From: Gammaproteobacteria bacterium
GTDB lineage: Bacteria; Pseudomonadota; Gammaproteobacteria; GRL18
Assembly: GCA_026196615.1 (NCBI GenBank)
Contig: JAPHSW010000002.1
Location: forward strand, 1-50,235
Reading direction: 5' to 3'
Length of the DNA stretch: 50,235 nucleotides
Part shown: piece after piece, positions 44,425 through 50,235 of the stretch
Layout of the letters: every line of letters starts with the position of its first letter
How positions within the stretch are numbered: the stretch's first letter is position 1
Notes under the pieces: generated by a model
What the model was told of the DNA's origin: nothing
What the model saw: the letters and a program-made list of their open reading frames with translations, nothing else
Database searches by the model: none
Position numbers and translations under genes: made by a program

Positions 44425-47400
44425 ATGGATATTATTTGCCCGAAATGTCAGACTCAGTATCGAAATTTACCTGAAAAGTATGCCAATAAGTCTTTGCGCT
44501 GTAAAAAATGTAACCATCGTTTTAAAGCAAACGAACCACCAAAATCACAGACACAAGAACCACAAGAGACACAGTTATCACCATCAATGCCTCAGGAAAC
44601 TCAGTTGGCGCCTTCTAGTGAGTTTGTGACAGAACCCACTGTTTCTCCTCAAGCCAGTAGTCCTCAGGAAACACAGCTTGCACCTAACCCATCAAATGAA
44701 AGTCATTCTTCCCAGCAAACTGGCCCTCAGGAGACGCAATTAGCACCGTCGGAATCACTTAAAGATAAAGTTTCTGTTCAAACGCCTTTGCCTCAGGAGA
44801 CTCAACTTGCTTCAGTTGAACAATTGTCTGATGAGCAGGGAAAAGACAAAGGTTTGACACCCCAGAAATCAAAACTTTCTGAAATTATAGGCCTGGGTTC
44901 GGAACAATTTTCTTCAGAATTAAACTTATCAAAACATTCAATTCATGATTGGAATGTGGGTGATGTTTTATTAGAGTTGTATGAAGTTATCGCTGTTTTA
45001 GGAGAAGGTCAGTTTGGCAAGGTCTTTCAAATAAGGCATCGTGATTGGAATTTGGATTTGGCTTTAAAAACGCCGAAGCAAAAAGCAATGAATTCTGGTT
45101 ATGAAAATATTGAAACAGAAGCTGAAACCTGGGTGAATCTGGATCTGCATCCCAATATTGTTAATTGCTATTATGTTCGCCGCATCGATGATGTACCACA
45201 AATTTTTAGTGAATATGTTGATGGTGGTGATCTCAAAGACATGATAGCTCAAAGAAAACTTTATCAATCTGATGATGGCTTATCAAAAGAAGAAAACAAC
45301 AAACAGTCTTTACTGAAAATTTTAGATATTGCCATACAATTTGCCTGGGGGTTAGGCTATGCGCATGAGCAGGGATTGATTCATCAGGATATCAAGCCAG
45401 CTAATGTTATGATTACATCTGATGGTGTGGTAAAAATTACTGACTTTGGCTTGGCTAAAGCAGGAGCAATGGCAATGGTGTCTGCGCCTGAAAATTCAAC
45501 GCAAGATATGAAGCAGACAATGATTATTGCCGGTATGGGGATGACTCCTGCTTATGCTTCACCTGAACAGCTTGTGGGTAAACCTTTAACTCGACGTACA
45601 GATTTATGGAGTTGGGGTGTTTGTGTTTTAGAAATGATTCTGGGATATTGTTCCTGGGAAGCAGGTCCTGTGGCTCCAGGAATTCTAGAAGCATTTAATT
45701 CAAATATGCTTGATGATGAGCCTGCTTTGGGTTCAATTCCTGAGGAATTATCAGAATTATTATCTCATTGTTTCGAAGAAGATGAAGGTAACAGACCCGA
45801 TAATCTAAATGATGTTGCCCGATCATTATTACAAATTTACAATCAAGAATCTGAAACAGTTTATTCTAGACAACAACCTCAAGCAGGTAGTGGTACTGCT
45901 TCCAGTTTAAATAATCAAGGTATATCTCTATTAGATCTAGGACAAACTGATGAGGCGATCCAGGTATGGAATAATGCGTTGCATATTGATCCGGAACATT
46001 TTGAAACAAATTTTAATTTATCTTTATTTCGTTGGAAAAATGAAGGTCTTGGTGAAACAGAACTTTTGGAACAAATCGAATCAACTCTATTGAGGGAGAA
46101 AGAGCATTCACAAATTGAGCGAATAAAATATGCTTTGGCTAAATTGTATCTTCAGTTTGGTCAATATGCTCAAGTGATAAAATTATTTAATAATGATTCT
46201 AATAAGATGAGCCAGTTACCTTCTGCAATAGATAGCGATGTTTGTAAAGAACTGGGACTGGCTTTATGCGCAGATTATCGATTAGTAAAAGATATATCAC
46301 ATTGGCAGCTTGTTGTTGATTGTTTAAAAAAAGGTATTGGAAACAGACTGGCTGATCCTTATTTGATTTCTGCTTATACACTTGCATTACAGCGCATTGG
46401 AAATAAAGCTGCTGCATCAAGGTTTTTTAAAGCCAGCACTATAACAGGTCTTATTCCAAAACAATTGAAGCAGGCTGTAGCACTTTTTTTGCCGGGTTAT
46501 GAAGTGTTATACAGAATAGGTCAAAAAAATATTGATATTGCTCAGTTTGTTAATGATGGTGAAAATATTGTTTTTAATCAAGGGAAAAATCTTGTTCTCT
46601 GGAGTCTGAAAGATAAGCAAGCGATTATTGAAATCAAAGGGCATCTTGGAAAGGTAACGGCTTTGTGTCTTAGCTCAGATGAAAAAAGACTTTTTTCTGG
46701 TTCAGAGCAAGGTGATGTTCGAATATGGGATTTGTCAACGGGTGAAATGTTATCGGTTTGGTCAGCGATTAATGGCAAGATTAATGCGTTGCAACTATCA
46801 CTATGTGAAAAGTATCTTTATATTGCTTCGAGTGAAAATCAACTCTCATTATGGGATTATGATAATAAATTAAGACTTAATAGTTTTAGTGGTGAAGGAC
46901 ATAGTGCCGAAATAATTAATATTCATATCTCACCGTTAACTGGTCAAATTGTCTCTGCTGGTGCTGATAATATTATTCGGGTTTGGGATAAAGACTCAGA
47001 TCGTACCAGCTGTATTCTTTCAGGGCATGACCTGGCAATAAGCTGTGTGCAATGGTTGGATACTACTCATGTGTGTTCTGCGAGTCAGGATAAGACAATA
47101 CGCTTATGGGATGTGGTGACAGGAGAATGTCTTCGAGTTTATAAAGGTCATCAGGGCAGAGTCAATGCAATGCGAGTCAGTGAAACCCAGGGATTTATTT
47201 TATCAGGTGACAGTAATGGTATCGTTCGCTATTGGAATATTAATACAGGTTCATCTTATGTGGTTTCAAAATTTTCTGGTGCGATTCGCTTTATCTCTTT
47301 AGATGAGTCAAGATTATTTGCTTCGATTGTAACATCGTCTAGTGTCAATATTATTGAAACAAATAATGAGTTTCGATACCATGCTACATACCTGTTTTCT

Positions 47401-49473
47401 TTGCCGGAATCTGCAATAGAAGTGGATGAGTTATCACGTGAATATCAACAAATTATTGCCCGAGCTGAATCTGTTTTTAATGAAGATAAAGTTAAATCCA
47501 TGGAAGAAGTTGAGCAGGCTCGATTTATCAAAGGCTATGAACGTGATTATTCAGCGTTTAAATACTGGTCAAAGTTCTATACTTTTTTTCCAAAATTAAA
47601 ACTGAAAGATATATGGAAACATGGTGTTTTAAAAGCACATGATGACCGTATTATGTCATTAGATGTTTCACCTTATAATGATTATGTTTACTCTGCTAGT
47701 AAAGATAAAAATATCTATCAATGGGATCTTGAAACTCAACAAAAGAATATAATATTTCCAAGTTTTGAAAAACAAATATCTTTGATAAAAGTGACTGATG
47801 ATGGTGCTGGAATACTGATCGCCTGTGATGAAAATATTCTACTGATGGATATAAAAAGTGGTAAACAACTTTCATTGTTCAGTCATCATCAAGGTAGTAT
47901 TATTGCAATGTCGGTGACTGCAGATGGACGCTTTGCATTATCCAGTGATGATAAAGGTCATTTTTATTTATGGCGTTTATTGACAGGTGAACTCATGGCT
48001 GATTTCACTGATATAAAAAACACGGTGACAACCATTACTGTGACACCTGATGGATGCTATGCACTAACTGGGCAGCGTAATAATTATTCAGTTTGTCTCT
48101 GGGATTTGGCAACTGGAAAAATCATATCAGACTTAGAAGGACATGAAAATATTGTCACCAGTATTTCGGTGACTTCTGATGGTAATTATTTTATATCAGC
48201 CAGTGCTGATGCTTGTTTGAGATTATGGAAAATTGAGTCCAGTCGAAAACAATCAGTACGAGTTATGAAAGGGCATACGAAGCGAATAAATCAGGTTGCA
48301 ATTGATTATCAGGGGAAAATAGCTGTTTCCGTAAGTGAAGATAAAACTATTAGAGTATGGGATTTAATTAATGGTGATTGTCTTCATAGTTTTGAAAATA
48401 CGAATGTGAGTTATACAACAGCAATCCTTAGTTTTGATGGTCAATATGTTTTTTCTGGAGATGCCCAAGGTCAGGTTGTTGTTTGGTGTCTTGATTGGTT
48501 ATTGAAGAAAAAAGTTTATAAGGAATGGGATAATAGTGCAGATAGATATATTGAAAACTATTTTACCACTCATAAAACAAAAGAACCTCATAAGGAGTTA
48601 AATAATACTTATCGTTTATTACAATATGCTGGTTTTGGTAGTTTAAGTGAAGACGTTGTTAGAGAACACTTAATTGGATTGTCACAGGAAAATCTTGATA
48701 TTATTTTACCAGGTAGTAAGCTAAATCGTACCAGATCTATTGAAAAAAATATTTCAGATAATAATCATATAATACCCTATAAGTCGATTCTTGTGATTGT
48801 TGCTCTTGCCTTATTAATTTTTAATTTATTTGATTTTAACTCTGAACCCGATATCGTCAGTGATAGTTTAGAACCTCAGGTTACAATCACAGATAAGAAT
48901 GAGCAATTAACAATTGATACGATGCTTGATATTGCTATAAAGCTGGCTAGACTCAATGAAGGTGTTAAAGTTATAGAAGGAAAGCTTGCTCGGGGTCTTC
49001 TCATTGTTCCTGCAAATGCTGAGAAATTTAAAAATTTTCTGAAACTTAATGAAGATGACATGGTTGATTCCTGGGGACATGATTTTATCTATAAAGTTGG
49101 TAAAAGTGGTGTGTTTAAAAGTCGAATTATGTTGCGTTCATCGGGTTATGATAAGGAACATAATACGGATGATGATCTTCTATTAAATGGGCTTCCACAC
49201 TGGTCATCATTAGAAATAAAAAAGAATAATCTCAGCATAATAAAACTATCATCAATCAAAAAACAAATAGAAATGGAGCTTGAAGATAGACTGTATTCTC
49301 AAATTGAAGATGATGATATTGAAGCTGTAGAGAGTTCTTTTGAAGATGAGTATCGTTCTGAACCACCTATTGAACTTGATGCAATTGAAGAAACAGAATC
49401 TAATGTTGAGGCAGTTGAAGTCATGGTTAAACCAAATTCTAAATCAAAAGTGTTTTTTGATGATAAGGAATAG
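44425..49473 (+). CDS. Giant transmembrane Ser/Thr protein kinase: zinc ribbon, kinase, TPR, two WD40 propellers, pseudopilin-like C-terminal domain
   Basis: 1682 aa. Residues 1-36 form an MJ0042-type zinc ribbon (CPKC...CKKC). A low-complexity linker with five PQETQL copies (46-128) follows. The kinase domain (about 185-475) has G193-E-G-Q-F-G198, Lys215, H320-Q-D322 with Asn327 (a non-RD kinase, Gln replacing Arg) and D340-F-G342. TPR-like helices (490-690) precede two sets of seven WD-type blades (about 705-990 and 1065-1358) joined by a helical linker. A membrane helix lies at about 1452-1470. The extracytoplasmic end has 'VDSWGHDFIYKV' and 'SSGYDKEHNTDDDLLL', like GspG C termini. An FHA-kinase gene follows at once. 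It may phosphorylate partners gathered on its propellers in response to an outside signal. Confidence 0.9.
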   Translation: MDIICPKCQTQYRNLPEKYANKSLRCKKCNHRFKANEPPKSQTQEPQETQLSPSMPQETQLAPSSEFVTEPTVSPQASSPQETQLAPNPSNESHSSQQTGPQETQLAPSESLKDKVSVQTPLPQETQLASVEQLSDEQGKDKGLTPQKSKLSEIIGLGSEQFSSELNLSKHSIHDWNVGDVLLELYEVIAVLGEGQFGKVFQIRHRDWNLDLALKTPKQKAMNSGYENIETEAETWVNLDLHPNIVNCYYVRRIDDVPQIFSEYVDGGDLKDMIAQRKLYQSDDGLSKEENNKQSLLKILDIAIQFAWGLGYAHEQGLIHQDIKPANVMITSDGVVKITDFGLAKAGAMAMVSAPENSTQDMKQTMIIAGMGMTPAYASPEQLVGKPLTRRTDLWSWGVCVLEMILGYCSWEAGPVAPGILEAFNSNMLDDEPALGSIPEELSELLSHCFEEDEGNRPDNLNDVARSLLQIYNQESETVYSRQQPQAGSGTASSLNNQGISLLDLGQTDEAIQVWNNALHIDPEHFETNFNLSLFRWKNEGLGETELLEQIESTLLREKEHSQIERIKYALAKLYLQFGQYAQVIKLFNNDSNKMSQLPSAIDSDVCKELGLALCADYRLVKDISHWQLVVDCLKKGIGNRLADPYLISAYTLALQRIGNKAAASRFFKASTITGLIPKQLKQAVALFLPGYEVLYRIGQKNIDIAQFVNDGENIVFNQGKNLVLWSLKDKQAIIEIKGHLGKVTALCLSSDEKRLFSGSEQGDVRIWDLSTGEMLSVWSAINGKINALQLSLCEKYLYIASSENQLSLWDYDNKLRLNSFSGEGHSAEIINIHISPLTGQIVSAGADNIIRVWDKDSDRTSCILSGHDLAISCVQWLDTTHVCSASQDKTIRLWDVVTGECLRVYKGHQGRVNAMRVSETQGFILSGDSNGIVRYWNINTGSSYVVSKFSGAIRFISLDESRLFASIVTSSSVNIIETNNEFRYHATYLFSLPESAIEVDELSREYQQIIARAESVFNEDKVKSMEEVEQARFIKGYERDYSAFKYWSKFYTFFPKLKLKDIWKHGVLKAHDDRIMSLDVSPYNDYVYSASKDKNIYQWDLETQQKNIIFPSFEKQISLIKVTDDGAGILIACDENILLMDIKSGKQLSLFSHHQGSIIAMSVTADGRFALSSDDKGHFYLWRLLTGELMADFTDIKNTVTTITVTPDGCYALTGQRNNYSVCLWDLATGKIISDLEGHENIVTSISVTSDGNYFISASADACLRLWKIESSRKQSVRVMKGHTKRINQVAIDYQGKIAVSVSEDKTIRVWDLINGDCLHSFENTNVSYTTAILSFDGQYVFSGDAQGQVVVWCLDWLLKKKVYKEWDNSADRYIENYFTTHKTKEPHKELNNTYRLLQYAGFGSLSEDVVREHLIGLSQENLDIILPGSKLNRTRSIEKNISDNNHIIPYKSILVIVALALLIFNLFDFNSEPDIVSDSLEPQVTITDKNEQLTIDTMLDIAIKLARLNEGVKVIEGKLARGLLIVPANAEKFKNFLKLNEDDMVDSWGHDFIYKVGKSGVFKSRIMLRSSGYDKEHNTDDDLLLNGLPHWSSLEIKKNNLSIIKLSSIKKQIEMELEDRLYSQIEDDDIEAVESSFEDEYRSEPPIELDAIEETESNVEAVEVMVKPNSKSKVFFDDKE
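44560..44814 (+). repeat. Five PQETQL(A/S)(P/S) repeats in the kinase linker
   Basis: The threonines are at residues 49, 59, 83, 104 and 126 of the kinase. At the DNA level the copies use different codons (Thr ACA, ACT, ACA, ACG, ACT; Gln CAG or CAA; Leu TTA, TTG or CTT), so they are not a recent DNA duplication. Protein-level conservation with DNA divergence points to selection on the motif itself. Spacing between copies is irregular (10-24 residues). Confidence 0.9.
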
Positions 49474-49478
49474 AACAA

Positions 49479-50235
49479 TTGATTAAAAAAATGCCCCAGG
49501 CTGTACTTAAAGTGATTCAGGGAAGTTTGTCAGGAAAAGAATTTAAATTCAATGAACGAACCACCTGTGTGATTGGTCGAGCATTAGATTGTAATATTCT
49601 ATTACCAGATGATCAAGCGCATAGCACCATTTCTCGTTATCATTGTTTGCTGGACATTAATCCCCCAGATATTTGCATTAGAGATTTTGGTAGTCTCAAT
49701 GGCACTTATGTTAATGGTGAAAAAATTGGTCAACGTGAAACAAATGCTGATCGAGATAAAGCTCAACATTTGATTTATCCTGAATATGATTTAAAAAATG
49801 GTGATCAATTTAAGCTTGGTGATAGTGTTTTTCAGGTTTCAATTGTGAGTGCTTCTGAAGACTCAAAGGACACACAGCTTGAAGCACCTGCTGCTTCACC
49901 ATTTAAAATTGATGAAGGCACATCGCCCTTACCAGAAACATCTGCAGCAGCAGTGGTCGATCCATTAGATAAAATTAATTTATTGCTATCAAAAGCAGAT
50001 AAAAATAATGACGAACTCATCAGCATTAAGGGATATGATATTGTTAAAGAATTAGGTCGTGGCAGTATGGGGGCAGTCTATCTGGCGCAAAGAACAGAAT
50101 CTGGTGTCCAAACTTCTCCAAAAATTGCTTTAAAAGTTATGTTACCAAAAGTGGAAAGTGACCCCAAAGCTCATCGTCAATTTATTCGTGAAACCAAAAA
50201 TACTCAATTGTTGAAACACCAAAATATTGTCAAAG
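49479..50235 (+). CDS. FHA-domain Ser/Thr protein kinase (5' part, cut by window end)
   Basis: 252 residues are visible. A TTG at 49479 has AAGGA nine bases upstream; the ATG at 49491 is in frame but lies 21 bases from that site, so TTG is preferred. The N-terminal FHA domain shows 'CVIGRALDCNILLPDD', 'ISRYHCLLDI' and 'DFGSLNGTYVNGEKIG', the residues that bind phosphothreonine. A linker carries DTQLEAP (49869-49889), close to the PQETQLAP repeats of the kinase upstream. The kinase domain begins 'YDIVKELGRGSMGAVYLA' with Lys in 'IALKVML'. Its 3' end lies outside the window. Only five bases separate it from the giant kinase gene, so they are one operon and probably one pathway. Confidence 0.93.
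   Translation, partial: MIKKMPQAVLKVIQGSLSGKEFKFNERTTCVIGRALDCNILLPDDQAHSTISRYHCLLDINPPDICIRDFGSLNGTYVNGEKIGQRETNADRDKAQHLIYPEYDLKNGDQFKLGDSVFQVSIVSASEDSKDTQLEAPAASPFKIDEGTSPLPETSAAAVVDPLDKINLLLSKADKNNDELISIKGYDIVKELGRGSMGAVYLAQRTESGVQTSPKIALKVMLPKVESDPKAHRQFIRETKNTQLLKHQNIVK

Follow-up and report, generated by a model that had tools for sequence, protein, structure and literature searches.

A kinase encoded near one end of a gammaproteobacterial contig carries a short threonine motif, PQETQL, five times in a linker predicted to be disordered, and the motif threonine is kept in every close orthologue. The conserved Thr motifs in the linker of a kinase encoded beside an FHA-domain kinase and a phosphatase suggest a multi-site docking strip that would join the two kinases.

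Gene A and its repeated threonine motif

The window (the whole stretch of DNA that was analysed, 50,235 nucleotides) is the entire contig G000:C67. The product of gene A consists, in this order, of a zinc ribbon, a linker with the Thr motifs, a Ser/Thr kinase domain with the HQD signature, a TPR region, WD40 propellers, a likely transmembrane helix and a C-terminal region. The features of the gene are the following:

44425–49473, + strand: gene A, 1682 aa (list of open reading frames, Pfam, orthologues)
44425–44529, + strand: MJ0042-type zinc ribbon, residues 1–35 (Pfam Zn_ribbon_4, E=8e-8)
44539–44934, + strand: linker, predicted disordered, residues 39–170 (AlphaFold2 pLDDT <50)
44560–44577, + strand: PQETQL copy 1, Thr49
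44590–44607, + strand: PQETQL copy 2, Thr59
44662–44679, + strand: PQETQL copy 3, Thr83
44725–44742, + strand: PQETQL copy 4, Thr104
44791–44808, + strand: PQETQL copy 5, Thr126
44980–45801, + strand: Ser/Thr kinase domain, residues 186–459 (Pfam Pkinase, E=9e-43)
45880–46560, + strand: TPR region (Pfam TPR_1, E=2e-8)
46582–48624 (approximate bounds), + strand: WD40 propeller region (Pfam WD40, six stretches)
48784–48834, + strand: likely single transmembrane helix, about residues 1454–1470 (alignment inspected by eye)
49012–49173, + strand: weak GspG-like region (T2SSG, E=0.1, under the cut-off)

The zinc ribbon scored above the cut-off of the TIGR02098 model (MJ0042_CXXC) and was well predicted by AlphaFold2 (pLDDT about 89). 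HRD is replaced by HQD in the kinase domain of A, which is of the non-RD type, in 14/14 close orthologues and in 51/63 distant A kinases. Past the likely membrane helix (48895–49470), a DSWG...D(D/E)DLLL pattern was seen to be conserved across orthologues. The kinases of A and B matched different parts of the NCBIfam model for MAD6, a methylation-associated antiphage system kinase (NF047741). With 121.9 bits for A and 97 bits for B both scores were under the cut-off of 460, and an antiphage reading based on this likeness was therefore dropped.

An earlier note on this DNA had described five PQETQL sites, encoded by different codons, in a flexible segment next to the kinase domain. The five sites and their differing codons were confirmed: the five copies occupy residues 46–128, between the zinc ribbon and the kinase domain and within the segment of low pLDDT, and their pairwise codon differences comprise 36 synonymous and 0 non-synonymous changes. 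In 20000 shuffles of the A linker no 5-mer occurred in five copies; the maximum of four was reached once.

The motif was then compared in 14 close orthologues, the one in the window included, which come from two genera of one gammaproteobacterial family. All 14 keep it, in 2–7 copies each and 47 in total, with the consensus P-Q-E-T-[QR]-L-A (P in 41 of the copies, Q in 44, E in 45, T in 47, L in 42 and A in 41). The position following the Thr (+1) is Q in 31/47 copies and R in 13/47, and +3 is A in 41/47. The sister genus g3 has TRL or TRM where the other genus has TQL, so that the strict TQL of the earlier note had to be widened to the family P-Q-E-T-[QR]-L-A. Mean identity in the linker was 37%, with 45% gaps, as against 73% in the kinase domain of A; the spacers turn over while the PQETQL-type motifs stay. 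The 18-residue units in the linker of G009 are near-identical and recent, and in G013, in G014 and in the two-copy genomes of g3 the repeat signal was weak when each was taken alone.

When the flanks were matched and the centre was left free, the centre was T in 46/47 windows and S in none. Serine is 2.4 times commoner than threonine in the linkers of the close orthologues, yet it never takes the centre of the motif, and the centres in distant linkers were likewise T in 42 cases and S in 0. FHA domains are the class that binds phosphothreonine, and the fact that the Thr is never replaced by Ser fits an FHA reader.

A DNA-level search of 13 genomes returned 31 matches to the motif, 29 of them inside gene A; the remaining two both lie in G015, outside any open frame longer than 80 aa. 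The same search did not find the motif in two relatives devoid of gene A. The motif is therefore essentially private to A in the 11 genomes that have the gene, and the idea of a proteome-wide element was discarded. So was that of a general trait of zinc-ribbon linkers, since no repeats of this kind occur in the second zinc-ribbon protein that was found in the genome.

The module of genes A, B and C

The FHA kinase that had been noted next door to A is indeed encoded there, by gene B, which starts 6 bases past the stop codon of A:

49479–50234, + strand: gene B, first part, with the FHA domain and then the start of the second kinase; ends at the contig end
49566–49739, + strand: FHA domain core of B (PF00498)

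Because the contig ends inside gene B, at 50234, and the remainder of the gene (G000:C5:11179-11853, − strand) was found at the end of contig C5, contigs C67 and C5 probably join at this point. Gene C, for a PP2C phosphatase, directly follows B on C5, and this genome thus has the arrangement A-B-C. The module consists of a WD40 kinase (A, HQD), an FHA kinase (B, HRD) and a Stp1-type PP2C phosphatase (C); the G007 orthologue of C scored 230.9 bits with the model of the latter, NF033484, whose cut-off is 230. The order A, B, C was found in every close orthologue whose contig reaches far enough, and the relatives that lack A also lack B.

The match of B to PF00498 reached 64 bits (cut-off 20.7), and the pocket residues G33, R34, S52, R53, H55, N74, G75 and N79 are invariant in 11 sequences. 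Judged by sequence, the FHA domain of B is intact and its phosphothreonine pocket is kept. The solved structures nearest to it in sequence are those of GarA, OdhI and DgcB (PDB); the AlphaFold model of B, with a mean pLDDT of 55, was too poor for fold searches. Among distant FHA kinases the HRD signature was present in 27/29, and the pocket residues could be seen by eye in the sequences. The second kinase had also been credited with a site of its own, DTQLEAP. This peptide is present in the B protein of the window and absent from all orthologues, and it was rejected as a conserved second site.

A scan of genome contigs yielded 79 loci of the wider family. An FHA kinase gene adjoins A or lies near it in Nitrospinota, Nitrospirota, Chloroflexota, Cyanobacteriota, Acidobacteriota, Ignavibacteriota and others. 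A PP2C gene is often close to the pair in other phyla, and the genes stand there in permuted orders, such as B-C-A in Nitrospinota. A and B form one polypeptide in two Symploca genomes (L086, 174-5372; L087, 7944-13139), in the order kinase, WD40, FHA (about residues 1252–1375) and second kinase; this fusion is a natural single-chain form of the module. In Verrucomicrobiota (L124, L128, L131) and Elusimicrobiota (L139, L141) the A-like kinase has an FHA-like region of its own in its N-terminal part, at the place where other lineages carry the zinc ribbon and the Thr linker. In Nitrospirota (L094, L096, L101, L112, L113, L123, L126) the module's PP2C protein gave a weak FHA match, and those A linkers that were read are short and have no Thr repeat. 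The Nitrospirota phosphatase with the weak FHA match represents a different wiring of the same parts.

Distant lineages and the proposed docking of B on A

Threonine repeats with other flanks were found in the A linker of distant lineages, Nitrospinota and Acidobacteriota among them. The L084 linker repeats PAET[VI][LM]A; PQETVAA occurs five times in L093 and three times in L107, and PAATVLE twice in L095. PSATVAF is present in L104, PATTVLY and similar peptides in L152, and DMTEVL/PDLTEVI in L120. The residues at +1 to +3 after the Thr vary widely in these lineages. In most distant repeat linkers the T-centred windows were more alike than in shuffles; an unbiased pattern count gave a convincing result in the gammaproteobacterial set and in L084, L093 and L107 alone, and its signal in Acidobacteriota was weak. 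Repetitiveness was weak or not significant in the linkers of Acidobacteriota, L085 and L138. On the kinase tree the motif label, assigned by eye, changed (by gain or loss) at least five times, a count that is to be taken as indicative.

Among the family loci, 14 have both two or more motifs and a nearby FHA kinase, 2 have the motif only, 18 the FHA kinase only and 19 neither (Fisher p=0.013, with loci counted without correction for relatedness). One of the two motif-only loci, L131, encodes an FHA-like region at the N-terminus of its A-like kinase. The FHA kinase is retained in many relatives from Nitrospirota and Cyanobacteriota whose A protein has a short linker or none and lacks the motif. 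The 18 loci with an FHA kinase and fewer than two motifs indicate that the FHA partner does not need the Thr strip everywhere. Retention of the FHA kinase without any TQL motif had been named in the earlier note as a refutation of its proposal; it was encountered in these distant homologues. All close orthologues keep at least two copies of the motif. That proposal, a multivalent phospho-scaffold tying two kinases together, is favoured by the invariant Thr, the neighbouring FHA kinase, the Symploca fusion and the Thr repeats of other phyla, and it has lost the DTQLEAP site and the strict TQL.

Taken together, the PQETQL copies are probably multivalent phosphothreonine docking sites on A for the FHA domain of B, reset by C; phosphorylation, binding, the direction of signalling and clustering are what we infer here. 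Several Thr between the zinc ribbon and the catalytic domain would be phosphorylated by A or by B, and the FHA domain of B could then dock on every phosphothreonine. With several copies on one strip, B would be concentrated locally around A and several B molecules could gather there, a situation expected to promote phosphorylation of B by A or trans-autophosphorylation of B; the PP2C phosphatase encoded by C would reset the strip. The C-terminal region of A (48895–49470) is possibly a periplasmic sensor.

One important question is whether the motif docks a different reader, such as another FHA protein, the zinc ribbon or kinase surface of A, or a partner of the unphosphorylated peptide. The genome has seven FHA genes, B and six others, the conservation of P, Q, E and A next to the Thr points to a complete recognition peptide for which phosphorylation would not be required, and distant relatives keep B without the motif. 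We nevertheless consider such a reader unlikely, though worth keeping in mind, given that B adjoins A in all close orthologues with a long enough contig and forms one chain with it in Symploca, that the motif Thr is never Ser and that the genome has the motif nowhere else. It is still less probable that the Thr are autophosphorylation sites tuning kinase A only, through the charge or conformation of the linker and with no FHA reader: if charge were all that mattered, Ser, Asp or Glu could take the place of the Thr, and P, Q, E, L and A would not have to be conserved, even if the sites are found in a segment, predicted to be disordered, that immediately precedes the kinase domain, a usual place for autophosphorylation, and a PP2C gene belongs to the module. 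A linker of low complexity that arose by the spread of tandem duplicates, its peptide having no selected function, would suit the copy number of 2–7 and the recent units of G009, but it is largely refuted and very improbable, as the copies in the window gene diverge only synonymously, the Thr is kept in 47/47 copies over two genera and the spacers turn over while the motifs do not.

If docking of B on the phosphorylated strip is correct, the module is a bacterial relay from one kinase to the other in which multivalent docking is built in, in its logic comparable to the MDC1/RNF8 cluster, and its short motif makes specificity directly testable with peptides. Orthologues differ naturally in copy number (2–7) and in having Gln or Arg at +1, and they already form a test series for valency and for the specificity of the FHA domain. 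We give roughly even weight to the broader view of a widespread and so far unnamed module, in which a kinase would build its own multivalent phosphothreonine strip and gather copies of an FHA-bearing second kinase, with a dedicated phosphatase, the strip having arisen or been kept repeatedly across phyla with differing flanks.

Comparison with known systems

The principle is known from PknG of Actinobacteria, whose N-terminal autophosphorylation sites anchor the FHA domain of GarA/OdhI (PMC8546545). The earlier note had called the arrangement apparently undescribed; because an autophosphorylated N-terminal Thr docking an FHA protein is known for PknG, novelty is limited to the multivalent kinase-to-kinase form, which did not appear in the literature searched. 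This search brought up no paper that links WD40, FHA, kinase and PP2C with one another in bacteria. Like A, PknG has a flexible N-terminal extension with several Thr sites before the kinase, TPRs after it and a small metal-binding module near it (PMC8546545). In PknG this module is a rubredoxin, which is present in the mycobacterial protein and absent in corynebacteria, whereas A has an MJ0042-type zinc ribbon. The FHA domain of B is closest in sequence, among solved structures, to the PknG partners GarA/OdhI. A departs from PknG in that a single motif is repeated exactly at its Thr sites, its TPRs are followed by WD40 propellers, and its FHA partner is a second kinase, whose gene belongs to the same module, as does that of a PP2C phosphatase. 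Since the metal module differs and PknG was absent among the best 60 PDB matches of the A profile, membership of A in the PknG family is not supported by these comparisons.

Bacterial kinases in which a Ser/Thr kinase is fused to WD40 repeats are common in cyanobacteria (PMC6113231, PMC2176072). PkwA and other members of this group resemble A in combining the two domains, a likeness judged from their description; neither a zinc ribbon nor a Thr-repeat linker is mentioned for them in the available part of PMC2176072.

The FHA domain of DgcB from Bdellovibrio recognises a conserved Thr that lies in a flexible tail at the N-terminus (PMC6733907). This is one site in the same protein and controls a diguanylate cyclase, whereas A offers a repeated strip that would act between two kinases.

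Among repeated strips, the one that comes nearest is the TQXF cluster of MDC1 in animals, with four conserved Thr-Gln-X-Phe motifs that are phosphorylated and read by the FHA domain of RNF8 (PMC11884936). In MDC1 it is a separate kinase, ATM, that phosphorylates the sites, whereas the scaffold formed by A carries its own kinase domain. MDC1 requires Phe at +3; in the motif of A this position is mostly Ala (41/47), and +1 may be Arg (13/47).
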